From Terriglobia bacterium (GTDB taxonomy: Bacteria; Acidobacteriota; Terriglobia; Terriglobales; Acidobacteriaceae), in assembly GCA_020072585.1 (NCBI GenBank), contig JAIQGL010000040.1:1-49689 (forward strand): a stretch of DNA of 49,689 nt. Reading direction: 5' to 3'. Position numbers and translations under genes: made by a program. Shown in pieces: positions 9,001 to 23,407 of the stretch. The number at the start of each line of letters is the position of its first letter. Positions within the stretch are counted from its first letter, which is position 1. The notes under the pieces were generated by a model, which was given only the letters and a program-made list of their open reading frames with translations, did not search any database and was not told where the DNA came from.

Positions 9001-12000
9001 TCCGGCTCTGCGACAGCAGCTGGATGAATTCTTCTTTCTCTTTTCGATTCAGTAATCGCGTGATGCTTTCTGAATTCTTTACCTGGCCACGGGCAATTCC
9101 CTCAGACTTTTTTCCATTCAGGAAGCAAGCGAGCTTTTCCAGCAATTCTTCTTTTGTCGCGGCGCTGATTGCCAAACGATGCTCGAACGATTTGCGTCCG
9201 GCCTGGAGAGTATGAGCAACGTCCATTAACCTGTAGTTGTTTTCCCGGATGGCCTTTTCCAGGCGAACCGCTACCTCACGCAGCTGGTCTTCAGTTTTTG
9301 CGGAGAGCGGAAAAATCAGTTCGTTGGCAGGAGCAGGCCCTTCATCGACTTGCTGGAGCGGCTCATAGCTCTCCAGGACCACATGCGCGTTTGCCCCGCC
9401 TGCTCCAAAAGAGCTGACTCCCGCGCGCGGCGGCTCCTGCGCTCCATCTATTTCTCTACTTTTCCAATCCTCCAGACGCTGTACAACATAAAAAGGAGAG
9501 TTCGCAAAATCGATGAATTCGTTCAACTGAGAGGAGTGCAACGAAGGCGCAAGCTTCCGATGCTTCATTTGCAGAAGCACCTTGGACACGCTGGCGATGC
9601 CCGCCGCTGCTTCCAGGTGTCCTATATTGCTTTTTACCGAACCGATAGCACAGGTCTGGTTCTCTACAGCGTACGACTTGAAAGCACTGCTCAACCCGCT
9701 GATTTCAATCGGGTCGCCAAGCTCCGTCCCCGTGCCATGGGCCTCAATGTAAGAAATGCTCCGCGCATCGATCTTGGCTTTTTCCAGGGCCGACAAAATC
9801 AGGTTGGTTTGCGCCTTTGGATTCGGGATGGTATATCCGCTAGCGCGGCCGCCATGATTGACTACGGCGCTTTTGATCACGCCGTAAATATTGTCTTTGT
9901 CGCGAATTGCCTGGTCTAAAGGCTTGAGGAACACGGCTCCAACGCCCTCGCCAGCCACATAACCATTCGCGCCCTTTCCAAAACTACGGCATACACCGTC
10001 TTTCGAGAGGGCGCCGCCGCCCGCATTAATCTCCAGCTTGGTTTCGTGCAAATCCAGATTTACGCCGCCGACGATGGCCGCCGAACATTCGCCCGCATGA
10101 ATCGCTTCACACGCAAGATAGAGGGCCGTCAGACTGGAAGAGCATGCTGTGTCCAGAGTCAAGCTGGGGCCGGAGAGATTCATCCAGTAGGAAACGCGGT
10201 TAGCGATGCTCCAAAGAAAAGAATTGGGTGGTATCGTCTTGCCGGTTGGATCTTCTTCACCGTCGAACATCTGATACATTGCCCATACCGCGCCTACAAA
10301 AACCCCAACGTTTCGTGACCCGTCTTCGCTCGCCAGTATCTCCGGGTAGTAGCCCGCATCCTCAATTGCCTCCCAGGCAACTTCCAGGAAAAGCCTTTCC
10401 TGAGGATCCAACATTGCCGCCTCTCTTGGGGAAATGTTGAAGAACAGGGAGTCGAATTTATCCACACCGTCAATGAAGCCACCACGGTACTTGCTTGCAC
10501 TTCCTTGCTTCAGACGCATCTCATAACGGTCTGCGGGAATTTCCTCGATACAGTCTTTCCCCTGTCTCAAGTTTTCCCACAGCTCGCTCAAGTTCTTCGC
10601 CTTGGGATAACGACCAGCCATCCCTACAATCGCGACGTCTTGAGTTTTATGGGGTTTACCATTGCGATCACTGCGGTTGGATTCGGGGTCCCTGGAAGCA
10701 TGCGTTGCTGCTTGCAGTGCGCTTGGAGAGGAACTTTCTGACAACTTGGTTGACACTGGTACGGCGTGGAAATCCGATGAAGCCGCGCCGGCTATGTCCT
10801 TTTGCTGATCCGTACTGGTGAAGTCTGGGCCGGCCACCATCTTTCCCGCGATGTTGTGGTAATTGATTAGACGGTAATTGGCGTGGACGATGCCCAGTGG
10901 CTGCGGCACGCTGCTCTCCAGGACGATTTCGGGAATATTTATTTTCCTGTCGAATAACTGAAGCAGCCTGCCTATCATGTCATCAACCTGGTCCCGTTTC
11001 ATGCCGACAGGGATGGCAAGACGTACAAGATCGTTGATGCTCGTATGCCTCTGCATTCCCACGCTGTGTGCGGCGGCACGAATCCCGGTATTGACGTACA
11101 TCCAGGCCAGAAAGGACGCTACTGGATATTTGAAGTCCTTGAATTCCGGAATTTGTTTAACATCAATCAGAACACAGTGGCCCCCGGCGGGATGCACAAC
11201 CGGAACGCCATGTTCCCGCAGCGCGTGCCAGATCAGGCGCACACCTTCCATTCTTCGCAACACTTTGGCTTCAATGTGCTTCCGATTCTGCAATGACAAC
11301 GCAATCATCTTTCTATCGATCAAATCGACACCAGGTCCGGCCTCATGAACAACCTCTTCCAATCGATGAAACAGCTTGACGTCATTGGTGGCGATGATTC
11401 CACCTTTGTTTACGCAAAAATCCTTGGTCAGGCTGCCGATGACGGCATCTGCGAAGGAGAGTATTTCCCGGACAACTGTCCAGACACTCTTACCCGCACA
11501 TTCTCCGTCTTGTTCAATCAGAAACTGCGCATTTTCAACAACGCGCGTACCGTCAATAACGAGAGGTATGGAGTGCCGGGCAAGCAGCACTTTTACGTCC
11601 CTCAGGTGTTGCATCGAAACGGGAGATCCGCCGGCAGCATTGTTGCCCACCTCGACACAGACCAATGCAATCGCGCCAGGATCTTGCGCCACCTGCGCCT
11701 GTAGTGCTTCCCAGTCCAGGTTGGCCTTGTACTGGTCGTGCGAATTCAGATCAAATACCGCGCGATGAGGCAATTCCTTGCTCGTAAAATCTTTGTCGAT
11801 CTGATGAAAAATAGTGCTGGGAAACAGTAGATTCTGGAGTGCGACGCCTTTCTTCGGCCATGCTCTGAAGAAAATGTTTTCCGCCGCCTGCCCTGAGGCG
11901 GTCAGGACAAAATAGGAGAAGGGGAATACCAGTCTCAAACTTTCGTCAACATTTGCAGGCTGCTGAAGCTGCGCATGCAGGCCGCTCATTTGCGCGTCGA

Positions 12001-13663
12001 TCGATGGCATCTGTAGCTGGGCCCAGGAATCAGTCTTCAGATCGAACTCGACGTGCTCATGCGGCATATTGAGGGGATTGAAGCCGAAGTCTGCCAGAAT
12101 GCGCGATCGCTCATTGCCCTCAATCACCATCCTCTCCGGGCTTACTGATGAGAATTGGGCAGATGGAACTCGCTTCATCGGCTCCGGCAGTCCCGCAACC
12201 TGCGGAAAGGCTTTCGCGGCATTATGATTTTCTTCCTCTGAAGTCTGGTTCTTCACAGGGTCAGCAATCATCATGATGATGTCGATGACATCATCGGGAC
12301 TGCCGCTTCCGACAGGACGACAAAGGAATATGGGTTTGTTGTCAGGGCGAAATTTATTCTTGAATTGAAGATTGCCCTCGTCATTGAAAATATTCTGCTC
12401 ACGCAAATCATCCAGCATCTTGTCGATCTCAGGGTCTGCATTAGCGGAGGAACTGAGCTTGCATCCGAGGGTTGCACCCAGGCTCAGCACATCGCGTCCT
12501 TCCGCCGCCAGAACTTCAATGATCTTCACGATCGCAAATTCCAATCCTCCCAGGGGCATATCTGGAGGATAGAATTCCAGGTCCATCAAGTAACCGTTTT
12601 CTTCAGCGCACATTGCGGAAATGAGGATGGCATTCTGCAGAACATCATCGAGATAGGTCAGGAAGAGACGGTGCTCTGCTCCTAGTGTGCCGGCGAGAAT
12701 TTCCGCTCTAACCTCGTGAACCAACGGGTTGACCTTTGTTTTGGGTTCGCACCATCTATCGATGATCGCAACGATATTCCGGTCTATCTCCGGATTGGAG
12801 CCGCATTGATACTCTTGTGTCTTACATACGCCGCATTTCTCGAACTTGGATACCTGGTAGCGCAGACGGCGCATCGCTCCGCCTTCAAGGGTGAATTCCT
12901 TTAGATTCAGTATGCGCTGTGCCACACCAAACGGCGTCGCCGAAAAGACTGTGTCGCCGACTGGCGGGATTTCCCTGTCGCCCATGATGTTGAGCTGGAA
13001 CTTGTTCGCGGTGCAATATACGCACAATTCTTTCAGGAGAGCGGGAAAATATTCTTCCGGCCCGGTATAACCGTAGGCCATGACAATATTCCTGCTTCGT
13101 CCGTAATTGAAATAGCCGCGTCTTGCGCTGCCAATGAATAGGTTTGGCGCAATTATTCTTGTCCCGCGCGAAATGCTGCTTTCCCGCTTGTAGCGACTGA
13201 AAAGCGTTTGCACGAGTTCTCGTAGTTCAGGATTTACATAAGCCTCCTTTTCCGTTATGCGAATCGGGACTGCTTTTTCGGCAATCGGAGCTGTTCGATT
13301 TACGGGCGGCTTTGCTCTTTCAGAGACTTCAACCGGTTTCAGAGACCGGCCGTTGGTATGGGCCAAAGAATCGCCGTTCTGCAACTCTTTTGTGAACCTG
13401 GCAGCGAGCACCTGCTCGTGGTTGCACACAAAGTAATTTGCCAGATCACTGATGGTGAAGTATTCAAAGAGCAGGCTCTTGGGCAACGTGCCGAAGTCCG
13501 TCTCCAGTCTTCTGATGATCTTTAGCACGTAGAACGAATCAATCCCCAGCTCGCCGAATGGAGCAAGCGAGTCGAACTTTGAACTTGAAGCCCCGGAAGT
13601 TTCCGCAATAAGGGACTTAAGGTACGACTCGGTTAGGTCTTGTAGCAGTTCCTGATGAATCAT
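1..13663 (-). CDS. Giant trans-AT polyketide synthase with N-terminal ACP, GNAT-fold and PLP-lyase domains (3' end beyond left edge)
   Basis: Open from ATG at 13663 to the left edge, over 4550 codons; an in-frame TGA seven codons upstream fixes the start. Domains seen: ACP (about 5-80, LGIDS, Ser43); a GNAT-fold DUF2156/lysyl-PG-synthase-C-like domain (about 155-430, LEGGAMRRLR and PPDMPLGGLEF); a beta-eliminating-lyase domain (about 490-910) with VIDGTR, NNAAGGSPVS and the PLP lysine K747 in TKDF. Then KS1 (C1174, HGTGT), DH1, KR1, ACP (S2465); KS2 (C2749), DH2, KR2, C-methyltransferase (about 4000-4320, EIGAGTGG), ACP (S4429); and the start of KS3. There is no AT domain, so discrete ATs must load it. 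DH1 and DH2 keep the catalytic His and Asp but have Asp or Asn for the Gly of HxxxGxxxxP. KR2 has YSAGC where YxxxN is expected. The domain order is seen directly; the sulfur chemistry suggested by the lyase is inference. Confidence 0.95.
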   Translation of the reverse strand, partial: MIHQELLQDLTESYLKSLIAETSGASSSKFDSLAPFGELGIDSFYVLKIIRRLETDFGTLPKSLLFEYFTISDLANYFVCNHEQVLAARFTKELQNGDSLAHTNGRSLKPVEVSERAKPPVNRTAPIAEKAVPIRITEKEAYVNPELRELVQTLFSRYKRESSISRGTRIIAPNLFIGSARRGYFNYGRSRNIVMAYGYTGPEEYFPALLKELCVYCTANKFQLNIMGDREIPPVGDTVFSATPFGVAQRILNLKEFTLEGGAMRRLRYQVSKFEKCGVCKTQEYQCGSNPEIDRNIVAIIDRWCEPKTKVNPLVHEVRAEILAGTLGAEHRLFLTYLDDVLQNAILISAMCAEENGYLMDLEFYPPDMPLGGLEFAIVKIIEVLAAEGRDVLSLGATLGCKLSSSANADPEIDKMLDDLREQNIFNDEGNLQFKNKFRPDNKPIFLCRPVGSGSPDDVIDIIMMIADPVKNQTSEEENHNAAKAFPQVAGLPEPMKRVPSAQFSSVSPERMVIEGNERSRILADFGFNPLNMPHEHVEFDLKTDSWAQLQMPSIDAQMSGLHAQLQQPANVDESLRLVFPFSYFVLTASGQAAENIFFRAWPKKGVALQNLLFPSTIFHQIDKDFTSKELPHRAVFDLNSHDQYKANLDWEALQAQVAQDPGAIALVCVEVGNNAAGGSPVSMQHLRDVKVLLARHSIPLVIDGTRVVENAQFLIEQDGECAGKSVWTVVREILSFADAVIGSLTKDFCVNKGGIIATNDVKLFHRLEEVVHEAGPGVDLIDRKMIALSLQNRKHIEAKVLRRMEGVRLIWHALREHGVPVVHPAGGHCVLIDVKQIPEFKDFKYPVASFLAWMYVNTGIRAAAHSVGMQRHTSINDLVRLAIPVGMKRDQVDDMIGRLLQLFDRKINIPEIVLESSVPQPLGIVHANYRLINYHNIAGKMVAGPDFTSTDQQKDIAGAASSDFHAVPVSTKLSESSSPSALQAATHASRDPESNRSDRNGKPHKTQDVAIVGMAGRYPKAKNLSELWENLRQGKDCIEEIPADRYEMRLKQGSASKYRGGFIDGVDKFDSLFFNISPREAAMLDPQERLFLEVAWEAIEDAGYYPEILASEDGSRNVGVFVGAVWAMYQMFDGEEDPTGKTIPPNSFLWSIANRVSYWMNLSGPSLTLDTACSSSLTALYLACEAIHAGECSAAIVGGVNLDLHETKLEINAGGGALSKDGVCRSFGKGANGYVAGEGVGAVFLKPLDQAIRDKDNIYGVIKSAVVNHGGRASGYTIPNPKAQTNLILSALEKAKIDARSISYIEAHGTGTELGDPIEISGLSSAFKSYAVENQTCAIGSVKSNIGHLEAAAGIASVSKVLLQMKHRKLAPSLHSSQLNEFIDFANSPFYVVQRLEDWKSREIDGAQEPPRAGVSSFGAGGANAHVVLESYEPLQQVDEGPAPANELIFPLSAKTEDQLREVAVRLEKAIRENNYRLMDVAHTLQAGRKSFEHRLAISAATKEELLEKLACFLNGKKSEGIARGQVKNSESITRLLNRKEKEEFIQLLSQSRRPYELADLWVDGLFADWRGFESNPSCKRVSLPTYPFADKRHWAGKNSPARSFLQPAVAVHPMVDTNESTFERQLFKKTFHDRDFFIYDHHVADIPTLPGVAYLEFARKAGEIAAGRKVQKIKNIVWISPISVQNSTPKEVFIELKPNDATVRFEVFSYDKNGGKVPHSQGTLLYATKQEEAAEPEFIDLQSVRARCAKAIEGKDAYPRFKSFGLNLGPSFQVLQEVYKNENEILGILKLPEFRQNDLQSMVLQPSLIDGSLQAGMGAHLGEELGEMFVPFSIGEVEVLHPLQSKCFSYATEMQGGKNGNRESTRLVKSDVLIVDETGKVLVKIRESVGVPLREVHKKTAPDAEADGFSKLNYSYEWEKAPLMPENPPRPGTHSIVLFDTQETLRDLYRERLRQEGKSSDQIVLVQPGDSFQDAGGYSYKINPRNKEDYTKLFQSLAESKYPIENICFAWTLGQPAPLDEKCLDEALVNGVYSFLFICQSLIQQKLESKVQLLYLYSTKQDEIQPSNEAVSGFIKALRVEHSKLLCKTLEVRQDGSGYDQILNAISAELQAQTQDATAVRYHAEERYIKKLRTFNFEEAAGSSPFQSVSIREKGVYLITGGAGGLGLIFAEFLSKEYKARLVLTGRSTLSAEREAKLDELRKSGAEVIYLTADVSNREDVSKLVNESNARFGQINGIIHAAGVLRDSLVRNKKPEEMSAVFAPKIYGTLHLDEAIQNENLDFFVLFSSVAAVGGNAGQCDYSFANHFMDSFAGARELLRAKGARSGKTLSLNWSLWADGGMRVDEQTELYFKKTLGIKPLSTATGLEAFVQGLASERSQFAVVEGVQEKVELAWGLRKKEPAPAISVPASSSQAEAPIADGKDADLAAWLQKELSKIVMEFLKLDAADVAVDKILLDLGFDSIGLTTFANTINEKYQLDITPVLFFDYPSIAEIAKYLSAERKNDLLRFYQGSAGKTQTAAPLQASRPPAGAQPAANLQEPTFAISKGWNSSALDREVAPAISGGGFSPELRFINHPIAIVGMSGVMPQSEDLNEFWENLKNSKDMITVIPPDRWKWEDYYGDPLKEPNKSNSKWGGFMKEIDKFDPLFFGISPREAQMMDPQQRLFLETVWKAIEDSGQKVSDLSGSRTGLFVGVANQDYVNVMNNLEVALDGYSASGNSHSVLANRISFLLNLRGPSAPIDTACSSSLVALHRAIESIHTGSCDMAIVGGVQIMLSPAGHISFGMAGMLSGDGKCKTFDKRANGYVRGEGCGAIFLKPLSVAEAEGNHIYAVIRATAENHGGRVTTMTAPNSSAQAALLVEAYEKAQIDAATVGYIECHGTGTSLGDPIEIQALTKAFSEMYKKHNHAPAEIPHCGLSSVKTNIGHLETAAGISSLLKALLAFKHKQIPANINFEEINPYINLKGTPFYIADKLTPWEAAIGEDGLPLPRRAGVSSFGFGGANAHIVLEEYVSPERRPPARPQEPQLIVLSAKNEDRLKAYVQSMHAYLEKESVELVDFAYTLQVGRDEMLERLALVASSTEDLQQKFAEILKGETPKDCYRDNIRNKATKPQTAEGSGGESLVSDLIEKKELSKLAELWVSGTKIDWNSLHKSDAPKRISAPTYPFARERYWIAGAEGKTFQVRRDRGPADIAKLHPLVHRNVSTLTTQKFASRFSGQEFFLADHKASNQAILPAVAYIEMVAAAGELSGEQKVQFIRDMVWMSPLIVEEDAKEVEVSLTPLKNEIDFAVKTQDKGHSITHCRGKLGYSGAVSGPEALNIGEIQECCSETVAGKDLYAFIHAAGLNLGKAFQVVQKVHTSKTQCLAVLQLPEHLKGEANQFCLHPVLLDSAVHTAVSMVKRNKPSIPWSIPYSVSEVQIRQSLKDVCYAYAAWDIDSIKDEKSFIKLNISFLDKNGTVLVRMKDFAAKPILQASAKGSAKEETDQHKKTGSDSGIEAGLQSLVPVWNRARLETSGRDIPAKTTKILLLGGDENQLGWVRSSYPNSQLLSLPPKASVELIEKEIGNGSFDQLLWIAPDAHTNAGRNDELIERQEEGVVAVFRIIKALLLSGHASKKLQWTIITSKTQRVLENDRIQPAHAGVAGLVGSLAKEYPQWDLRLLDVDSLASVSVQECLSLPWDKQGNGLAHRQGEWFQQGLALMATLPQGPPVYRQNGVYVVIGGAGGVGEVWSRFMIEKYQAKLVWIGRRECNPTIQGKINSMARLGYAPLYIQADAANLDSLEHALKEIRETYPTIHSVVHSAIVLNDQSIARMDEAGFRASLSAKVDTSVNMDRVFGNQELDFMLFFSSIVSFVKSPGQSNYSAGCTFKDSFAQKLQQERAYPVKIMNWGYWGSVGIVADESHNELMRRMGIGSIEAHEGMASLQALVNSEVSQMALIKTLNSEAVAGLRLSETVTHYPKVTPAVLPEVQAALAKRPSVKSIAVLEQELPSAEMSELATEIFASSLKSLGLFSNGIHRIADLSLEKQPAPYYERWLSSSIFYLQQQGLLADDLTFIRGVRELAGLWAEWEEKRSVWAANPNLQAQIALFEACLKALPGILSGKQRATDAIFPNSSMQLVEGIYRGNVLADHFNETLSDTLISCIEQQLAADKNQKIRIVEIGAGTGGTTAKLFPILQRFPIEEYRYTDVSKAFLMYAEKHYKPQLPALTTSIFDVSRPLAAQSIAADHYDVAIAANVLHATPNIRQTLRNAKAVLKNQGVLLLNEISTWSLFNHLTFGLLEGWWLNEDTELRLPGSPGLSTEKWREVLAEEGFESIFFPAQEAHKLGQQVVVACSNGWVRQSLIKKLPLQPSMGLKKDDAKAGNSVGTKNAPKETPISCSTGLTEPMGNDYIKRVLVEKLSAALKIDADRIRHDAPVAEYGVDSIIGVDLIRTINETLRIELETMALFEHSTVDQLAQYIWTNWQSVIAGQLGQVQSTFQKSASTDATVAPDQGLEHRFLKTDLPAAADQQTNFVQKHENNSGNVGVEPIAIIGMSGRFAGSESLDEFW

Positions 13664-13863: not shown

Positions 13864-15243
13864 TCAAATCTTAATTGTCTTCCATCTGCCATCGATCCAG
13901 AGCCCGCTAATCAACACAGTCGCAAGCAGACTATATGCCACTTGAACGAACCACAGTTGCAAAAGACCATAATGTAAGTAAGGCCCAACAAACCACACTA
14001 TAGGTAGAAAAAGGAGCCATTGAGTAGTCAGAGAAATGATCATGATCCGCTTGCCATCACCGAGGCTATTTAACGTATAACCAAAGATATACATCAGGCT
14101 AAATATTCCAGCCGTTGCAGCCTCGAGCCGCAATGGAATATTGGCGATTGACATTGTGTGTGGATCAGAAAGAAAGATTGACAAAAACACTTTAGGGAAC
14201 AAAAGCATAGGAAGTCCCAGCGCGGTAATGCCAATGACTCCCAGTTTTCCTGCAGTCCATCCCCACTGGGTAGCTCCTTCAAGATCGCCCTCGCCTACGG
14301 TCCTGCTGACCAACGTTGCAGAAGCCCTGCCTAATGATGTTGCCAGGATACTTAATACCATTGTGACTCTAACCAGAACATTCGCAGCAGCCAACTCCGC
14401 CGTTCCCACCTGGCCAACCATCCGCAGAAAAACAACATAGCCACTCGCAAAGAAAAACGCCGCAATGTTGATGGGCAGCCCCAACCTGACAATGCGCATG
14501 ACCAGAACCCGCTCTGGTTTTGCGCTCAAGAACCCATCGTTTCGGAAACGGAAGTGGACAATCAAACAATGAATGATGACGCCTACATAAAGAGACAACA
14601 CTGTGCTGATGGCAGATCCCGTAGCTCCCAGGGCAGGAGCACCGAAATGGCCGAAAATGAAAATATAATTCAGGAAAGTGTTAAGGCAGGTCATGAGAAG
14701 GACTACTGACATGTATACGCGCGGCTTTTCGATTCCTGTCCAGTAACCGCTGAACGCGTATTGCATACCTACAGCGACAATGCCGAGGTTTAGAGTCCTA
14801 AGAAGGGGGATCCCTATTTTGGTTATATCGGGATCAGAAGAAATGAGGGAGAAGAAGAAGGGGCTTAGCAGGAAGCAAATAGCGGCAAGGGGTATTCCCA
14901 CAACAAGTGCGATCAATAGGCCTGCGGTGAGCGGTAAACATCGAGGCTCCGTGGAACGCTCGCCTCTTCTACGAGCCACAATACCTCGTATTGAAGACGC
15001 TAGTCCCTCCACTGAAGCCAGGATAAGACTATTACTAAAGACTGCCAGCCCCAGAGCTGCGACGGCTTTGTTTCCTAATCTTCCAACCATGGCAAGGTCA
15101 ATCAACCCCATTAGCAAGGTAGAGCCTTGAGCAAGGCTTATGGGAAGCGCCAGCCTGGATATCGCCGTCATTCGTTCTGAGGTAGATATCAGAGGACGGC
15201 TCTGTATCGGCAGTGATGCTGGAATTGTTTGCACTTGTGACAT
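13864..15243 (-). CDS. MATE-family efflux transporter
   Basis: A 459-residue polytopic membrane protein with the two-bundle layout and usual length of MATE (multidrug and toxic compound extrusion) exporters. The N-terminal half carries LALPISLAQGSTLLMGLIDL, a typical first helix with the ID motif, followed by MVGRLG. MATE proteins use proton or sodium gradients to export drugs. The gene sits between the START-domain gene and the giant PKS in the same orientation, so it probably exports the cluster product or gives self-resistance. The ATG at 15243 has no strong Shine-Dalgarno sequence. The fold is clear; the substrate is inferred from position only. Confidence 0.9.
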   Translation of the reverse strand: MSQVQTIPASLPIQSRPLISTSERMTAISRLALPISLAQGSTLLMGLIDLAMVGRLGNKAVAALGLAVFSNSLILASVEGLASSIRGIVARRRGERSTEPRCLPLTAGLLIALVVGIPLAAICFLLSPFFFSLISSDPDITKIGIPLLRTLNLGIVAVGMQYAFSGYWTGIEKPRVYMSVVLLMTCLNTFLNYIFIFGHFGAPALGATGSAISTVLSLYVGVIIHCLIVHFRFRNDGFLSAKPERVLVMRIVRLGLPINIAAFFFASGYVVFLRMVGQVGTAELAAANVLVRVTMVLSILATSLGRASATLVSRTVGEGDLEGATQWGWTAGKLGVIGITALGLPMLLFPKVFLSIFLSDPHTMSIANIPLRLEAATAGIFSLMYIFGYTLNSLGDGKRIMIISLTTQWLLFLPIVWFVGPYLHYGLLQLWFVQVAYSLLATVLISGLWIDGRWKTIKI

Positions 15244-16299: not shown

Positions 16300-16567
16300 G
16301 TTCTTCTCCAAGCCTTGTGTAATCTAAAGATTTATTGGATCTGTTAAAACAGGTTTACGGGTAACTATTGGTGCTGCTGCGTGTTGATATTTGTTCTTAT
16401 TCCTGCTGAGCTACAACAGTTGTAAATTTTGGAGGCGGCGGAGAGAATTGCACTCCCGATTGTCTGCTTTGCTGGCAGACGCCTTGCTGTCTTGGCTACG
16501 CCGCCTTTTAACTTTGGGAATGAGTATTGGGGGCCGTACTAATGGAGAGGGGCCCCTTGCCGCGCCG

Positions 16568-17467
16568 TTATCTCCCCGCCATCGCGGGGACACTCTCGCT
16601 GTTTTCTTCTTGTTGAATTTGTTGCACTAATCGCGTCAACACATTTCCCGGACCCATTTCGCTGAATTGCGTGACGCCCTGACCGATGAGCAAGCGCATG
16701 CTCTGCGTCCATTGCACCGAATTCGTGATCTGACTCACCATTAGAGACTTAACGGACTCCGACGCATTGCAGGCCGGGTACAGTTGGGCGGTCGCGTTGG
16801 CAACCACCGGCGTTTGCGGCGCTGCAAAGGACATGGGCGCCAGAAAATCACCGAATGCTTTCGCGGCATCCGCCATATAACGCGAATGGAAGGCGGCGCT
16901 GACCTGAAGAGGCATATACATTCTCGCGCCTCCTTTTTCAAAGATCGGCGCTACGCGCTTGATGTCTTCGACCGGCCCCGATAGCACAATCTGCGACGGC
17001 GCATTGAAATTGGCGACATCGAGGCTCGCGAGTCCGTTTTCCTTGATCAGTCTTGCGACGGTGCTGGCGCTCAGGCCAATCACCGCAGCCATGCCGCCAT
17101 TCCTGGCTTGCGACATCAGTTCGCCGCGCTTCTTGACCAGGCGCAGGCCGGTCAGAAAATCAAACACGCCCGCTGCCAGCAAGGCATTATATTCGCCCAG
17201 GCTATGACCTGCCACGTAAGCAGGATGCGTGCCCTGACTGACAGCCTTATAGTAATGAAGCGCATTGACCACATAGAGGCAGGGCTGGGTGAACTGCGTT
17301 TCTTTCAAGCGATTCTCCGCATCCTCCAGACACAGCTTGCGTAAGGAATAGCCAAGAATCGCGTCCACGTCCTTCTCAACCGCGGCATATTCGTAGACTT
17401 CATCGAACAAACCCTGACCCATGCCACGTTTCTGTGAACCCTGACCGGGAAATACAAAAGCAATCAT
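16568..17467 (-). CDS. Discrete malonyl-CoA:ACP acyltransferase (trans-AT)
   Basis: About 299 residues from ATG 17467, which begins MIAFVFPGQGSQ and has AGGAGAG a few bases upstream; a longer ORF start is not supported. The AT motifs are FPGQGSQ, the nucleophile elbow GHSLGE and the specificity motif AAFHS, typical of malonyl-specific enzymes and of PksC/BaeC-type trans-ATs. It is the expected donor of malonyl extender units to the AT-less modules of the giant synthase at the left end. It is followed by the START gene and lies 10 bases downstream of the PPTase gene, so it is probably co-transcribed. Confidence in family and malonyl preference is high. Confidence 0.93.
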   Translation of the reverse strand: MIAFVFPGQGSQKRGMGQGLFDEVYEYAAVEKDVDAILGYSLRKLCLEDAENRLKETQFTQPCLYVVNALHYYKAVSQGTHPAYVAGHSLGEYNALLAAGVFDFLTGLRLVKKRGELMSQARNGGMAAVIGLSASTVARLIKENGLASLDVANFNAPSQIVLSGPVEDIKRVAPIFEKGGARMYMPLQVSAAFHSRYMADAAKAFGDFLAPMSFAAPQTPVVANATAQLYPACNASESVKSLMVSQITNSVQWTQSMRLLIGQGVTQFSEMGPGNVLTRLVQQIQQEENSESVPAMAGR

Positions 17468-17477
17468 TGAAACTCTC

Positions 17478-18341
17478 CTATTGTGATTGTTGTGCATAAT
17501 GCAAACGATCAAATGTTGAAAACCGCAGGAACTCGACAGGAATTTCCTTTTCGCTCAGCATCGGAACCGTCTCCCGAACGATCAGGGATGGCGATTCGAG
17601 GCAAATTCGGCCCGCGCAGACCGCCACCAGATATTCTGGCCTTGGCCGCAACTGCCAGAACTGCCATTGCCCCGGATCGTCGGCCAACTCGGGATTGATC
17701 GCGATCTCAACCGCTTGCTCATCGGGGTAGTGCAAGCTGAACTTGTCGAGGGGCAATGACAAACCCATGCCACGCGCCTTGATGTACGATTCCTTGAACG
17801 TCCAATACTCGAAGAATCGATACTGCTGTTGCTGCTGCGGCACGGCAGCAAGGTCCGCAACTTCTTGCGGCGCGAAATAATGGTCCGCGATTTCAATTGC
17901 CGCTGTGCGCGCGCGGAAATTCTCAACGTCCACCCCTAAAGCGCGGCCCTTCGTCACTCCCAGGACGATCAGGCTGTGCGTGTGGGAAATGTTGAACGAC
18001 AAACATAAGTCTCTTGCTTGCGCATTGACGATGTCGGGGCGTCCATAGGCATTCGCCGAAAAAACCCATTCCCTGGGCTGGATAGGCGCGTAGCGTGACA
18101 ACACAGTCCTCACCAGAGCCCGGGTCACCAGGTAACGGCGCCGGTCTCTGGCAAAATAGAACCGCGGTTCCTGTTCTCTCTCCACGTCGTTAAGCAGGTC
18201 CCGGTAGGCTGACAACAGCGGTTCTTCATTGATCTCGTCATAAAAAGCAAGCCACAAATGAATCTCGGAGGGCGTGAGGGAGATGGTCCGGTCCATTTTC
18301 ATTGGACCAAATGACGCGCGATCCGCGCTGTTAGCACTCAT
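17478..18341 (-). CDS. Sfp-type 4'-phosphopantetheinyl transferase
   Basis: About 287 residues. It attaches 4'-phosphopantetheine from CoA to the conserved Ser of carrier proteins, converting the cluster's ACPs from apo to holo form. Motifs seen are FNISHTHSLIVLGV, LGVDVE and WTFKESYIKARGMGL, the Mg/CoA-binding Asp/Glu and WxxKES signatures of the large Sfp class. ATG 18341 is chosen because it overlaps the stop of the metallophosphoesterase by 11 bases, suggesting translational coupling; an internal ATG at 18302 is the alternative. A cluster-specific PPTase fits the many ACPs here. Confidence 0.93.
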   Translation of the reverse strand: MSANSADRASFGPMKMDRTISLTPSEIHLWLAFYDEINEEPLLSAYRDLLNDVEREQEPRFYFARDRRRYLVTRALVRTVLSRYAPIQPREWVFSANAYGRPDIVNAQARDLCLSFNISHTHSLIVLGVTKGRALGVDVENFRARTAAIEIADHYFAPQEVADLAAVPQQQQQYRFFEYWTFKESYIKARGMGLSLPLDKFSLHYPDEQAVEIAINPELADDPGQWQFWQLRPRPEYLVAVCAGRICLESPSLIVRETVPMLSEKEIPVEFLRFSTFDRLHYAQQSQ

Positions 18342-19092
18342 GGATGCACATAAGGCGCTTCGACGTGATCCTGGTTTCGCTTGGGTAACCGAAAGCATTG
18401 TTGATATAGGAGACACCGTCGATTCGCACCTGACGGTTAACATGACTGTGTCCGTAGACGTGAATGTTTGGGTTGAACTGTCGCAACTGGAAATCCAGTT
18501 GGGCCGAACCCAGGATAGGGTAAAGAAACTTTTTCGCGTTCGGAATGAATCCCGGCATTAAATCGATGCGCGGTAAAAAGTGCGAGTAGGTGATGACAGT
18601 GCCGCCCGCCGGACTGATCTGTTTGTTATTGAACGCCGCAAAGTAGGCCGCAACGTCTTTTTCCGTGAACCCGCTCGGCCAACGGCAGGCCCGGTAATCC
18701 ATCCATATCGATTTCAGCTCTTCGCTCGGCTCGCCAAAGGAGTAGTCGTACCAGCCCAACACCGGAATGATCGATACGTCCTGCTCGCGAAACGCCTGCA
18801 TCGACGCGCCACTTGATTCAACCACTGCGCAAATGTCATCGAACTTCTGCAATGAATTCTTTTCGCAATCTTCGCGTACTACCCACAGGTCGTGATTGCC
18901 TGGCACAAATAACACTTTGTGAAAACGTTTTGCGAGTGTGCTGAGACACCAGTCGAGCAATCGTTGCGTATCAGTCACGTCCCCGGCAAGAATGAGCACA
19001 TCGTCTTGATATTCGGCAATGGATAGATTTGCGACCCACTTGGCGTTTTCGTCGTAGTCGATGTGAAGATCGGATAAGGCAAATATACGCAT
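18331..19092 (-). CDS. Calcineurin-like metallophosphoesterase overlapping the PPTase gene
   Basis: A 253-residue protein with every signature of the family in order: SDLHID, AGDVTD, PGNHDLW, TYSHFLPR and YGHSHVN, which bind a di-metal centre. It therefore hydrolyses a phosphomono- or diester. Its stop overlaps the start of the PPTase gene. In Mycobacterium tuberculosis the metallophosphoesterase PptH is encoded next to PptT and removes phosphopantetheine from carrier proteins, so this pair may be a functional parallel. That function is inference; the family is certain. It starts at ATG 19092, 24 bases after the upstream AT-like gene, with no clear ribosome binding site. Confidence 0.88.
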   Translation of the reverse strand: MRIFALSDLHIDYDENAKWVANLSIAEYQDDVLILAGDVTDTQRLLDWCLSTLAKRFHKVLFVPGNHDLWVVREDCEKNSLQKFDDICAVVESSGASMQAFREQDVSIIPVLGWYDYSFGEPSEELKSIWMDYRACRWPSGFTEKDVAAYFAAFNNKQISPAGGTVITYSHFLPRIDLMPGFIPNAKKFLYPILGSAQLDFQLRQFNPNIHVYGHSHVNRQVRIDGVSYINNAFGYPSETRITSKRLMCIHEC

Positions 19093-19116: not shown

Positions 19117-20073
19117 TTAATTTCTGATCGACGCCAGCAAGGCCGCCAAATTCTTCTGATCGAGGCCGAAGGGCGTCAGAATCGTGTGCACCATCGACTT
19201 GGTGTTCGCAGGCATTCCGTACTTCAGGAACGTAGCCAAAGTACCCGATGGGCCGAGATCGATGTATCGGCGAGCACCTTGTTGCTCCAATCGCGCTGTG
19301 GTTTCGCGGAATCGAACCGGACGACGGGCGACACTCCAGAAATAATCGTCAGACAGGCCAGACAGAATGGCTGAATGATCGCAGCACGCCAACGGTAATC
19401 GGCCTTGCTTGCGCGGAACCGACCGCATGAACGATTCAAACGGAGCTTTCGCTTTGTCGATCCACTGCGAGTGAAAGGGGAAGGAAACCGGGAGCCGCTG
19501 ATAGCCTACGTTTCGCTGGTCCAAAACAGCCTCGATCTCCGCGAGTGCCGCACATCTTGCGGATACGACGAAATGAGAGGAGAAGTTTACTCCCGCTAAT
19601 TCACAGCGGCCACTCAAGAATTCCTCAGCAAACAGCGCCGGATCTGCCATTATGGCTGTCATCCCTCCAGGCTCACAATGTTCCTCGAACGCCATCGCCT
19701 GCCGCACCACGGAGCTCAAAGCGTCTTCGAGCCCAATGAAACCTGCCACCGTCGCCGCAGCGAAAGAACCTAAACTGGCACCCAAGACCATGTCCGGTCG
19801 TACACCCGCGTGAATCAAGGTTTCGGCCAGCGAATATTCCACCATGAATATCGCGGGATGCGTCAGCAAGGTGCGGTCGAATGGATCTCCCTTGCGGTAT
19901 AGATTGGAATAGAGAACCTCGACTACGGACTTGCCTGACAGCTGCCGTGGAATATCATCAAGGCGGATCATCCAGTCGCGGAAAGTCTTGTTTTTCTCAA
20001 AGAGCTCCCTCCCCATTTGGAAGTATTGCGATCCCTGGCCTGAGAACATGAATACAGTTTCGGGGGCTGGCAC
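19117..20073 (-). CDS. Discrete AT-like protein, candidate acyl hydrolase (proofreading) of the trans-AT system
   Basis: A 318-residue acyltransferase fold: FMFSGQGSQYFQMG at the N-terminus, nucleophile elbow GASLGS instead of GHSxG, and FPFHSQ at the specificity position. Trans-AT clusters often carry two AT-like genes; the one departing from GHSxG is often an acyl hydrolase that clears stalled chains (PedC type). The missing His of GHSxG fits this, but a transferase for another acyl unit is not excluded. The start is GTG 20073 with GAGGT about six bases upstream. It lies between the ACP-GNAT fusion and the metallophosphoesterase in one transcription direction. Confidence 0.85.
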   Translation of the reverse strand: MPAPETVFMFSGQGSQYFQMGRELFEKNKTFRDWMIRLDDIPRQLSGKSVVEVLYSNLYRKGDPFDRTLLTHPAIFMVEYSLAETLIHAGVRPDMVLGASLGSFAAATVAGFIGLEDALSSVVRQAMAFEEHCEPGGMTAIMADPALFAEEFLSGRCELAGVNFSSHFVVSARCAALAEIEAVLDQRNVGYQRLPVSFPFHSQWIDKAKAPFESFMRSVPRKQGRLPLACCDHSAILSGLSDDYFWSVARRPVRFRETTARLEQQGARRYIDLGPSGTLATFLKYGMPANTKSMVHTILTPFGLDQKNLAALLASIRN

Positions 20074-20133: not shown

Positions 20134-20934
20134 TCAGATGGGACAGGTCTCAATATTAGGGAAAGATTCCTCAAATGGCGGCCAGCTTGACTCCCGGCGA
20201 ACCAACACATGGCATTTGCCAAATTCCGTTGTTAATAAAGGAGCTTCGGCAGTAAAACCAAGACTCCGGATCAGCATAGAAGAGCGCGCCTGGGCTGCTG
20301 GGTACAGGAGCCACCCCATGGCAAATCCGTTTGGACGAATGACTGTACTTTCAGCAGCTTCAATCAGCGTCTTGAAGATATCGCGTTTGCGATATGGCTT
20401 AAGTATGGCCAGCTGGGCATAACGGGCGACACGGTCATTTTTTTCGAAGCTCAGGCGGTAGCGTTGGTGGACCTGGCAGTCTCCAGTGGTGTCTACAACG
20501 CTTAGCGTTGCGATCGCATCGCGGTTGTCTCGTGCCAGAAAATGCCAGACTCCCGTCTCTCCCGGTCCGGGCAGAGGATTGTATGAGAACCCGCGCTCGA
20601 TCGTGAAAACTTGAGTCCGGATTCCCAGCATCTCAGACCACTGTTGATTCCTGGTCACTGTTTCGATTCGGATATTGGAGATCTCCTTCCGCACCGCTAT
20701 CAGCGAATACAAGTGGTCCACCGTCTCACCCACAGTATTGAGCCGCTCGCCCACCGTGTGCGGAATTTCCACCATAAATTCGTTCTCCACCGCCCGTGAC
20801 ATCTCCAGGCGGTCGAGCGAGTCTGCCCCCAACTGAGTCCAGGTGGATTCCTCGGTTATCTCCTCCTGCCGGACTCCCAGTTGTTCGCTGCTGATCTGCT
20901 GTAAGCGCGTCAGAAGTTCCTGCTTCGTGTCCAT
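20134..20934 (-). CDS. ACP fused to a GNAT N-acyltransferase-like domain
   Basis: A 266-residue two-domain protein. Residues about 1-80 form an acyl carrier protein with LGADSLDRLEM, where Ser39 is the phosphopantetheine site. Residues about 90-255 form a GNAT-fold domain that resembles N-acyl amino acid synthases of the FeeM/autoinducer-synthase group (LGIRTQVFTIERGF, then AQLAILKPYRKRDIFKTLIE). Such enzymes transfer an acyl group from an ACP to an amine. Here the donor ACP is covalently attached, so it could acylate a small amine or cap a chain from its own carrier. The reaction is inferred. ATG 20934 has GGGGG a few bases upstream. Confidence 0.85.
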   Translation of the reverse strand: MDTKQELLTRLQQISSEQLGVRQEEITEESTWTQLGADSLDRLEMSRAVENEFMVEIPHTVGERLNTVGETVDHLYSLIAVRKEISNIRIETVTRNQQWSEMLGIRTQVFTIERGFSYNPLPGPGETGVWHFLARDNRDAIATLSVVDTTGDCQVHQRYRLSFEKNDRVARYAQLAILKPYRKRDIFKTLIEAAESTVIRPNGFAMGWLLYPAAQARSSMLIRSLGFTAEAPLLTTEFGKCHVLVRRESSWPPFEESFPNIETCPI

Positions 20935-21131: not shown

Positions 21132-21917
21132 TTACGGAACCGGAACGCTCTCGTGTTTCTCCCAGGGAAATAAGCCTTCTTCAACGTAACGAGTAATGGC
21201 CTGCAGATTATCGACGTCTGAGAACATTTCCCGATTGGCAGCGACCGCAGGCGATTTCATATCCTGCAACGGCAAACTGATGCTACGCATATACGTCTTA
21301 TATCGACGAACAGCGCCCTTCGAGAGTCGCCGCAACCGCTGCAAATGCCGCCGCAACAATAGCTCGCTTGTTGGTTCAAATGCATCTACCAGTCCCCATT
21401 CGCAGGCTTGCTTCGCAGAAATGGGCTGGGTCATCAGCGTAAGGTAGTGCGCCTTCTGAACCCCGATGCGACGTATCAGGAACGGCAGCACGCAGGCCGG
21501 GTAGAGACCAAACAGCAATTCGGACAAACTAAACTGTGCGGTCTCGTCAGCGAGAACGATATCACTCGCAGCAACAAAGCCTACGCCTCCGGCATTCGCT
21601 TTGCCGCGCACATGCGAGATCGTCACGTACGGCCCGGTTGCCAGACGCAGCCACAAGTCGTATAGCGGTCCGGGACCTTCATCATACTCATGAGCCTTCT
21701 TCGACGCGCTGGCCTTGGCCTTAAAATCGGCGCCAAAGCAAAACACTTCCGGTGAGCCGCTCAGCACCACAATATTCGCGGACTCCTCGCACGCAGCCAG
21801 GACATGATTGCACTCGGCAACGAGCTGACCGCTAATAGTATTGTTGGCCTCAGGCCGGTCAATCTGTAAGAAACAGGTCGACTCCTGAAACTGGACTTTG
21901 ATTGTTTCGTAAATCAC
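21132..21917 (-). CDS. Enoyl-CoA hydratase/isomerase family, ECH1-type dehydratase of a beta-branching cassette
   Basis: About 261 residues from GTG 21917, chosen because AGAGGA lies upstream at normal spacing and because the longer ORF reads into the preceding KS gene. Crotonase features: FCFGADFKAK and KANAGGVGFVAASD form the oxyanion hole, and SELLFGLYPA follows. The closest resemblance is to PksH/CurE-like ECH1 enzymes, which dehydrate HMG-ACP to 3-methylglutaconyl-ACP during beta-branching. The preceding ACP and Ser-type KS support this. The decarboxylating partner ECH2 and the HMG synthase are not in the window. Confidence 0.88.
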   Translation of the reverse strand: MIYETIKVQFQESTCFLQIDRPEANNTISGQLVAECNHVLAACEESANIVVLSGSPEVFCFGADFKAKASASKKAHEYDEGPGPLYDLWLRLATGPYVTISHVRGKANAGGVGFVAASDIVLADETAQFSLSELLFGLYPACVLPFLIRRIGVQKAHYLTLMTQPISAKQACEWGLVDAFEPTSELLLRRHLQRLRRLSKGAVRRYKTYMRSISLPLQDMKSPAVAANREMFSDVDNLQAITRYVEEGLFPWEKHESVPVP

Positions 21918-21945
21918 AGCGATCCTCTGGCGGTTATAAGAATGC

Positions 21946-23169
21946 TCATACCTGATGATGGTGTTGCCAGCACAGCGCCGTATTGATGCCACCGAAGCCC
22001 ATGCTCAAGGTCAGCGCGTTCTCAATGGCATGATCGACGGACTCATCTCTTACCCAATTCAATGTCGAGTCGATAGGATTTTCCAGATTGCGCGAGGGGT
22101 GCAACCGGCCTGCCCGCATCTGCAGCAGGGTTGCAATCACTTCCACCGTACCGGCGGCGCTCAATCCATGACCGATCAGGGACTTGGTCGCGTTCAGATA
22201 CGGGGCCGTCAATCCGCAGTTACGCAGTGCCTTCAACTCCGTTTCGTCACCTGCAACAGAACCTGTGCCATGCGGATTGACGTAATCAATCTGGGCCGGC
22301 GACAATCCTGCCGCATCCAGTGCGTTCTGAATCGCTTGCGTCTCTCCCTCAAGAGATGGATCAGGATTGCGGTTTCCGTCCATGACAATTCCCCAACCAC
22401 CGAGAACTGCGTAACGCTCCTGCCTCCGGCGCTCACTCGATTCCATCGACTCGAGGACCACAGCGCCGCAGCATTCACCAAAGATGAATCCGTCGTGGTC
22501 GCGATCGAAGGGACGGCAGGCCAGGGACGGCTCGTCCCCATAGCGGTCCGAACCCATCGCACCAAGCGCGCGCAGGCCCCGACACTCCCAATGTGACAAA
22601 TCCATGAGTGCGCCCAATGCAATGCATACATCCACTTGCTTCATGAGTACTGCCTGTGCAGCTTGAACAATTGCCAGTTGCCCGCTTGCTGATGCGCCGC
22701 CTACCGTGTAAGCCAGACCGCGAATCCCAAACTGCGCTGTGCAAAAGCCACACAGGTCCGAATCCATAAATGACAGCCCGTAAGTCGGCCGCAGGAACGC
22801 CGGCCGGGCGCGATAGGCCTCGTGATTCTGCACCAATTCGCGCTGCTGAACGTTCGAGCCACCAACGATCAGGCCAATACGGCAGGGATCGACATCAGAT
22901 AATCGCGCCTCAAGCCACGCTTCCTGTAACACGGCCAGGGCAGCCTGCGCAGAAAGAGAGGATGCGCGCAACGTTTGTTGGGTAATACCTGGAGAAAACT
23001 TGATTTCGCCGATTTCCGCTCCGATATAAGTGGATTCTCGCTGACGGCCCGGGCGCTGCATTACGCCGAAAGCATGCTTGCCCTCCAGCAAGGCGGTTAC
23101 AAACGCAGCTTTGCCTTGTCCTGTTGCCGCGATCACTCCTACTCCGGTAACAGCAGCTTTAGACAGCAT
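21946..23169 (-). CDS. Discrete ketosynthase with Cys-to-Ser active site (malonyl-ACP decarboxylase of HMGS cassette)
   Basis: About 407 residues from ATG 23169 (MLSKAAVTGVGVIAATG), overlapping the upstream ACP stop by 11 bases; the 59 extra N-terminal residues of the longer frame are out-of-frame ACP sequence. The thiolase fold is intact with PHGTGS and KSLIGHG, so both catalytic His residues are present. The nucleophile position reads GGASASG where DTACSSS is usual, aligning Ser with the Cys. Ser-type KSs in beta-branch cassettes (PksF, CurC) decarboxylate malonyl-ACP to acetyl-ACP rather than condense. Its neighbours match that cassette. Confidence 0.9.
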   Translation of the reverse strand: MLSKAAVTGVGVIAATGQGKAAFVTALLEGKHAFGVMQRPGRQRESTYIGAEIGEIKFSPGITQQTLRASSLSAQAALAVLQEAWLEARLSDVDPCRIGLIVGGSNVQQRELVQNHEAYRARPAFLRPTYGLSFMDSDLCGFCTAQFGIRGLAYTVGGASASGQLAIVQAAQAVLMKQVDVCIALGALMDLSHWECRGLRALGAMGSDRYGDEPSLACRPFDRDHDGFIFGECCGAVVLESMESSERRRQERYAVLGGWGIVMDGNRNPDPSLEGETQAIQNALDAAGLSPAQIDYVNPHGTGSVAGDETELKALRNCGLTAPYLNATKSLIGHGLSAAGTVEVIATLLQMRAGRLHPSRNLENPIDSTLNWVRDESVDHAIENALTLSMGFGGINTALCWQHHHQV

Positions 23170-23407
23170 CAAGTTTTTGCAGGAACAAATCGGCCAGTTC
23201 GCCGATGTTTTTGGGGCCGAACAACTCGACGCGTGGAATCGAGATGCTGAGTGACTCCTGTACCAGCATCGCGATTTCAGCACGGTCCACCGAGTTGGCG
23301 CCCAGGTCTGCCAGCCGGTCAGCCGCAACGAACTGATGCGCATCAAGGCCGGGCAGTATTTCGCGCGTATGCTGCGCGATCAGGTCAAGGAGTTTTGTCT
23401 TAGTCAT
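23159..23407 (-). CDS. Discrete acyl carrier protein of the beta-branching cassette
   Basis: An 82-residue acidic carrier protein with LGANSVDRAEI, where Ser is the phosphopantetheine attachment site. The GANSxDR form is typical of the stand-alone ACPs of HMG-synthase cassettes (AcpK/PksE-like). It would carry malonyl, then acetyl, for addition to a beta-keto intermediate on the assembly line. It overlaps the upstream hydroxylase gene by 8 bases and the downstream KS by 11 bases, so the three genes are probably translationally coupled. Confidence 0.93.
   Translation of the reverse strand: MTKTKLLDLIAQHTREILPGLDAHQFVAADRLADLGANSVDRAEIAMLVQESLSISIPRVELFGPKNIGELADLFLQKLDAV

Follow-up and report, generated by a model that had tools for sequence, protein, structure and literature searches.

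tRNA-Cys genes in trans-AT polyketide synthase clusters suggest cysteinyl-tRNA as the cysteine donor for ACP-DUF-SH

A 49,689-nucleotide contig of a Terriglobia bacterium (GenBank assembly GCA_020072585.1, contig JAIQGL010000040.1, positions 1 to 49,689; hereafter the window) carries a trans-acyltransferase (trans-AT) polyketide synthase (PKS) gene whose product begins with an acyl carrier protein (ACP) domain, a DUF domain of the GNAT fold and a pyridoxal phosphate (PLP)-dependent lyase domain, SH. The gene has 4554 open codons and is truncated at window base 1, where the contig starts. Pfam places PP-binding at residues 14-77, LPG_synthase_C at 183-448 (E = 2.7e-16), Beta_elim_lyase at 571-853 (E = 1.2e-26) and KS from residue 1008. 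A first-pass annotation had recognized an ACP (Ser43), a GNAT domain and a PLP lyase (K747) at the opening of this gene, and the Pfam matches and a residue check confirm all three; the lyase motifs it named are in the protein (NNAAGGSPVS from residue 674, VIDGTR from 702, and K747). The only tRNA found by ARAGORN in the window is a tRNA-Cys(GCA) that lies within the cluster, on the same strand as the PKS gene and 2.8 kb upstream of it. This tRNA gene, which the first-pass annotation did not pick up, points to how the DUF domain may work: ACP-DUF-SH is probably a sulfur-installing half-module with Cys-tRNA(Cys) as its cysteine donor.

One scan of a genome collection returned 14 loci encoding relatives of the window ACP-DUF-SH. 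They belong to Angelobacter AA117, a Thermoanaerobaculia metagenome-assembled genome (MAG), the Acidobacteria MAG AA63, four Aquimarina, two Fulvivirga, two other Bacteroidota MAGs, two Massilia and one Steroidobacter, and the match to the window protein begins at residue 1 or 2 in all 14. Four Streptomycetaceae plasmid records encode DUF-SH at 37.5-42% identity; three are annotated, with LnmK-type, ACP and HMGS genes beside the PKS, and the fourth carries no annotation. By sequence, the window lyase has its best Protein Data Bank match in entry 9cen, "Polyketide Synthase Protein" (E = 1.4e-58), followed by tyrosine phenol-lyase (TPL; 1e-46) and tryptophanase (4.4e-36). A lyase tree was built from 26 rows: 15 non-actinobacterial, five leinamycin-type (including 9cen) and six TPL/tryptophanase-type; rel_G036 was left out, and row rel_G010b is G007 (locus L072). 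The 20 SH rows split from the six TPL/tryptophanase-type rows with 100/100 support. The 15 non-actinobacterial rows grouped together in 94% of bootstrap trees (support 93/99); 9cen, counted with the leinamycin-type rows, has a long branch.

Residues K747, D704 and R707 are conserved across the aligned SH, TPL and TnaA rows. The site aligned with TPL Arg381 is His in 19/19 SH rows with data; both TPL rows have Arg there, and all four tryptophanase-type rows have Ile. Arg881, which aligns with the TPL Arg that presumably binds the free carboxylate, is kept in 19/19 SH rows with data. The SH frame of AA63 is broken (L020, about 8624-11300), with the match in two pieces, through sequencing error or decay, and appears as gaps at these two sites. 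The first-pass annotation could not say whether the lyase falls in the SH clade, and a grouping with tyrosine phenol-lyases would have contradicted its reading; the 100/100 split places the lyase in the SH clade and so does not refute that reading. By sequence, then, the window lyase is an SH domain, with C-S lyase activity as a prediction.

The DUF domain scores 59.9 bits for PF09924 (curated cut-off 27.5) and has the fold of MprF synthase domains. Its top structural matches are aminoacyl-tRNA-dependent transferases. The first-pass annotation had also asked whether the leinamycin DUF is a GNAT domain. It is the same domain as the window DUF, at 41-45% identity, and the proposed likeness in domain order holds, with an ACP preceding the same MprF-type DUF and an SH-clade lyase. 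Because the lyase is of the SH clade and the leinamycin-type DUF is the same GNAT domain, the idea that cysteine-derived sulfur may enter this polyketide is a reasonable one.

The window tRNA-Cys folds into a cloverleaf; it is absent from the 70 Rfam tRNA matches listed for the window genome (G000). This genome has further tRNA-Cys genes: an ordinary one on contig C6, a member of a 25-tRNA array on C43 and, on C58 (L065 18612-19481), a near-copy of the window gene. The near-copy precedes by about 300 bp an open frame whose start, judged by eye, looks like the ACP-KS portion at the C-terminal end of the window PKS; the contig end cuts this frame. G000 and G001 belong to one genus (Angelobacter; Acidobacteriota according to NCBI), and in AA117 two tRNA-Cys copies precede the DUF-SH gene by 1.4-1.5 kb. 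Three genomes of the genus have arrays of 19-25 tRNA genes: L066 7653-11665 (G000:C43), L142 (G001:C122) and L143 (G008:C192). The array tRNA-Cys, which keeps U33, is the nearest relative seen of the Angelobacter cluster tRNA-Cys and, given the close likeness, may be its source. The T-loop G55 (UGC for TPsiC) and odd D-loop of the window tRNA were considered as non-ribosomal marks and rejected: the U33-keeping array tRNA-Cys share the T-loop in 3/3 genomes, so the argument uses base 33 only.

Searches with a tRNA-Cys model (R2) covered the four plasmid records and the 14 genomes of the relatives, and most of the strong matches were inspected in their genomic setting. PKS-linked tRNA-Cys genes are present in 10 of 15 non-actinobacterial DUF-SH genomes: four copies each in F. 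imtechensis and Bacteroidales Cfx3-06, two each in G000, AA117, AU58, A. atlantica, A. megaterium, a Bacteroidia MAG and Steroidobacter, and one in A. muelleri. A fifth tRNA-Cys of Cfx3-06 is on a contig without a recognized PKS gene. Six of the 10 genomes have a copy on the DUF-SH contig itself; in the other four the tRNA-Cys is on a separate contig beside a KS-like gene, accompanied in three by AT, ECH and HMGS genes. In AU58, KS/KR matches recur from SH (542.6 kb) to HMGS (627.8 kb); tRNA-Cys (632.5 kb) and a KS-like gene (633.9 kb) come after. The layout is similar in A. atlantica and F. imtechensis, where stretches of up to about 13 kb lack KS matches. The clusters hold tRNA-Cys and no other tRNA; the tandem copies are full-length, number one to four and fall into at least two sequence types. 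The extra tRNA-Cys genes of the two Massilia have no PKS match within 10 kb and were not counted. F. kasyanovii has two adjacent tRNA-like genes with four-base ARAGORN anticodons (cttc and ctgg; L022 1606-1759) about 4 kb upstream of its DUF-SH PKS.

Two or more tRNA-Cys genes were found in 12 of the 15 DUF-SH genomes (E <= 0.001, most copies read by ARAGORN; several phyla). Among 79 Flavobacteriaceae without DUF-SH (E <= 1e-12), 73 have one, three have none and three have two, the extra copy lying in a tRNA array in two genomes and in a tandem pair in one. The Fisher p of 4e-10 for this comparison overstates the contrast because the DUF-SH set had a looser E limit, spans several phyla and includes near-related Aquimarina rows.

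Base 33 distinguishes many of the cluster genes. U33 is needed for the anticodon-loop turn in decoding, and the anticodon GCA and U73 are the charging determinants of tRNA-Cys. U33 is replaced by A or C in 14 of 24 PKS-linked or cluster-type tRNA-Cys genes (the 23 PKS-linked copies and the fifth Cfx3-06 copy) and is U in 10, and the anticodon GCA and U73 are kept despite the loss. The comparison set of 44 other tRNA-Cys genes, 16 plus 28 added by reading every tRNA-Cys in 228 loci, keeps U33 in 43. Its sole non-U33 member is a C33 gene, the second of a tandem pair in the Flavobacteriaceae genome G106 (L204 9959-10178), which has no DUF-SH match and no PKS gene recognized by eye in the open reading frame list; it is perhaps another non-decoding tRNA-Cys with another use. 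U33 was probably lost more than once, since Angelobacter shows both A and C at this base and Bacteroidota C; within Angelobacter it is changed in the cluster copies and kept in the three array copies. The cluster tRNA-Cys thus often looks to be in a form unsuited to the ribosome.

Cysteinyl-tRNA synthetase (CysRS) genes were counted with PF01406 over the 15 DUF-SH genomes, of which 12 have a single match, each Massilia has two and Steroidobacter has three. The second Steroidobacter CysRS (L017 4886-6397) lies 2.2 kb before ACP-DUF-SH and is intact, with catalytic, DALR and CysS_C domains and a stop codon that overlaps the start of a phosphoesterase gene. A separate CysRS fragment with stops adjoins the cluster tRNA-Cys of this genome (L209 5415-6062). 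The second, divergent CysRS-like genes of the Massilia (L207 9695-11074, L208 10006-11346) are 35-36% identical to the Steroidobacter CysRS; no PKS match was found near them, and they were left out of the PKS-linked count.

The other cluster genes of the window are listed in Table 1. The first-pass annotation had placed a beta-branch cassette here. Only part of it lies in the window, namely the ECH gene and candidate KS-like and ACP genes; Pfam finds no LnmK or HMGS there, and the F. imtechensis HMGS has its sole G000 match on a different contig, G000:C28. The PKS beside HMGS ends in KS-DH both on G000:C28 and in F. imtechensis. Because there is no space for an ACP after this DH, a split module is proposed: ACP-DUF-SH may complete a KS-DH//ACP-DUF-SH module that carries an enoyl or beta-hydroxy chain on the ACP, a pairing suggested by the gene ends. 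The description of ACP-DUF-SH as the head of the PKS is thus correct for the gene and may not be for the assembly line. Two loci, L144 19101-19826 and L226 11296-12021, encode a metallo-beta-lactamase-fold hydrolase, which adjoins the group of tRNA-Cys genes in F. imtechensis and comes directly after the KS-DH PKS in G000. Upstream of the trans-AT cluster genes, the window has a second PKS gene with built-in AT (26096-34681, minus strand; 2861 aa) that matches two KS, two AT, DH, KR and two ACP.

Table 1. Features of the window PKS gene and its neighbors.
Feature	Coordinates	Strand	Remarks
trans-AT PKS gene, cut by contig end	2..13663	-	ACP-DUF-SH, then KS/DH/KR/ACP, KS/DH/KR/MT/ACP domains
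SH domain, PLP-dependent beta-lyase, residues about 520-911	10931..12106	-	K747, D704, R707, H866, R881
DUF domain, MprF/LPG-synthase-type GNAT	12218..13258	-	residues 136-482 as aligned; Pfam PF09924 at 183-448
ACP, residues 14-77, Ser43	13433..13624	-	
MATE-type efflux protein	13864..15243	-	
tRNA-Cys(GCA), A33 instead of U33, U73 and CCA kept	16430..16505	-	ARAGORN
Stand-alone acyltransferase (trans-AT), 63 bp upstream of tRNA-Cys	16568..17512	-	
4'-phosphopantetheinyl transferase	17478..18443	-	
Calcineurin-like phosphoesterase	18331..19092	-	same Pfam family as gene after CysRS in Steroidobacter cluster
Second stand-alone acyltransferase	19117..20073	-	
ACP-containing protein, beta-branch cassette candidate	20134..20934	-	
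Enoyl-CoA hydratase-like protein (ECH), beta-branch cassette	21132..21992	-	
Stand-alone KS-like protein, beta-branch decarboxylase candidate	21946..23346	-	

The half-module would work as follows. CysRS would charge the tRNA-Cys, which is cluster-encoded in many clusters, and loss of U33 would keep this tRNA pool off the ribosome. The upstream KS-DH half-module on another protein would probably hand the chain to the ACP. The DUF domain would bind the charged tRNA and pass cysteine, possibly CysSSH, to the ACP-bound chain; our guess for the new C-S bond is acylation of the beta-hydroxyl, elimination and thia-Michael re-addition. SH and PLP would then break the cysteine C-S bond to leave -SH or -SSH on the chain and release aminoacrylate (pyruvate and ammonia). 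In cleavage, SH domains show a 50-106-fold preference for a thiocysteine adduct over a cysteine adduct, and adduct formation by the DUF domain has been put forward as a hypothesis only (Meng et al., PMC8479088); Escherichia coli CysRS is reported to make CysSSH-bound tRNA (PMC5660078). A broader proposal, possible though not one toward which we yet lean, is that all DUF domains of DUF-SH, including that of leinamycin, are Cys-tRNA-dependent transferases with a dedicated off-ribosome tRNA-Cys in at least two phyla and their own CysRS in one cluster, and that CysSSH-tRNA supplies the thiocysteine for S-S bonds.

The fold, the tRNA genes, the loss of U33 and the cluster CysRS would all be explained by a GNAT transferase that draws on Cys-tRNA or CysSSH-tRNA. 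Two results weigh against this reading: five of the 15 genomes (the two Massilia, F. kasyanovii, AA63 and Thermoanaerobaculia) have no PKS-linked tRNA-Cys, and the R2 model finds no tRNA-Cys in the four Streptomycetaceae plasmid records, three of which have leinamycin-type neighbors. The absence of cluster tRNA-Cys from the leinamycin-type records favors the published leinamycin model, in which the DUF domain or no enzyme adds free L-thiocysteine or L-cysteine, SH cleaves the adduct and the tRNA genes lie outside the chemistry; SH domains are shown thiocysteine lyases, and the cystathionine gamma-lyases of the producers make thiocysteine (PMC8479088). We consider that model unlikely: it leaves the MprF-type fold, the PKS-linked tRNA-Cys, the U33 loss and the cluster CysRS unexplained.

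Antibiotic clusters commonly carry spare target genes, and the additional tRNA-Cys and CysRS genes could be spare copies of this kind, for self-protection against a product or a chemistry that interferes with cysteine charging; a second CysRS and additional tRNA-Cys are both present in Steroidobacter. Copies without U33 would make poor spares because they should serve translation badly, CysRS is duplicated in only one of 15 clusters (the Massilia extras have no nearby PKS match), and self-protection gives no account of the MprF-type DUF, which together make it very unlikely. tRNA genes are also common insertion sites, and the Angelobacter cluster tRNAs closely resemble the array tRNA-Cys of G000, G001 and G008, as expected of mobile-element scars or strays from tRNA arrays. 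That the clusters hold only tRNA-Cys, with up to four full-length copies in tandem and more than one sequence type, and that U33 is changed in the Angelobacter cluster copies and not in the three array copies make such an origin scarcely credible. The DUF domain could instead load cysteine from Cys-tRNA onto the ACP thiol, with SH converting it to an aminoacryl or pyruvoyl starter so that no sulfur stays. Moving an aminoacyl group to a thiol is simple chemistry of the MprF kind, the protein starts with the ACP, and the stretches inspected in AU58, F. imtechensis and Steroidobacter show no KS match ahead of DUF-SH. A starter unit is at odds with the retention of Arg881, the presumed counterpart of the carboxylate-binding TPL residue, in all SH rows with data, with the PKSs that end in KS-DH without an ACP and suggest an upstream half-module, and with the leinamycin-type DUF-SH, which works at the end of its line (PMC7618002); we regard this alternative as quite improbable.

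Cysteine loading and the source of the second sulfur are the least understood step of leinamycin-family biosynthesis. The cluster tRNA-Cys and CysRS suggest a concrete cysteine donor, and if Cys-tRNA does serve ACP-DUF-SH, the cell's tRNA-charging system is tied to modular polyketide synthesis. A tRNA-Cys beside DUF-SH would also be a genomic marker for sulfur polyketides outside the actinobacteria. DUF-SH beyond the leinamycin family has been published, in three further cluster families, and the present loci may already be in the published set of 109 DUF-SH clusters (PMC8479088). New here are the PKS-linked tRNA-Cys genes, the loss of U33 and the cluster CysRS alongside DUF-SH. In searches of the open PMC literature, no title or abstract start ties leinamycin or DUF-SH to aminoacyl-tRNA, and no cysteinyl-tRNA term appears together with a leinamycin or trans-AT term among the matches listed; subscription leinamycin papers were outside this scope, and the idea may be in print. 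Leinamycin or DUF-SH terms and aminoacyl-tRNA terms co-occur in PMC4849084, PMC10342363 and PMC6256058, and the passages seen of a 2026 review of aminoacyl-tRNA-dependent enzymes (PMC12945691) does not contain "polyketide", "leinamycin" or "cysteinyl-tRNA".

Among known systems, MprF, L-PGS and A-PGS (PF09924) have their sequence family and fold in common with the DUF domain; their acceptor is a membrane lipid, whereas the DUF domain is part of a PKS, with an ACP on one side and a PLP lyase on the other. The tRNA-Gly dedicated to staphylococcal peptidoglycan synthesis is a non-ribosomal tRNA with altered conserved bases, as proposed for the cluster tRNA-Cys, and it serves another amino acid and pathway. 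The GNAT-fold enzymes VlmA, DhpH, DhpK, PacB and Orf11 are biosynthetic and take the amino acid from tRNA, as proposed for the DUF domain; according to the review they are FemABX-like, none of them is a PKS domain there, and none is described as acting on Cys-tRNA in the passages seen (PMC12945691). The TglA pathway to 3-thiaglutamate draws on Cys-tRNA as sulfur amino acid donor for a natural product, as proposed here; its acceptor is a peptide C terminus and its enzyme is of another class than the DUF domain (PMC9016710). Closest are the leinamycin-family DUF-SH proteins (LnmJ, GnmT and WsmR; PMC8479088), which share the ACP before an MprF-type DUF and the SH clade. Leinamycin-family lines have a terminal KS-ACP-ACP-DUF-SH-TE with LnmK/L/M genes; here ACP-DUF-SH opens the protein, with KS next, one ACP and no TE in the block, as in non-leinamycin DUF-SH modules, which have one ACP and lack a TE (PMC7618002). 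The present systems also differ from the leinamycin family in being non-actinobacterial and in having tRNA-Cys genes in many of their clusters.
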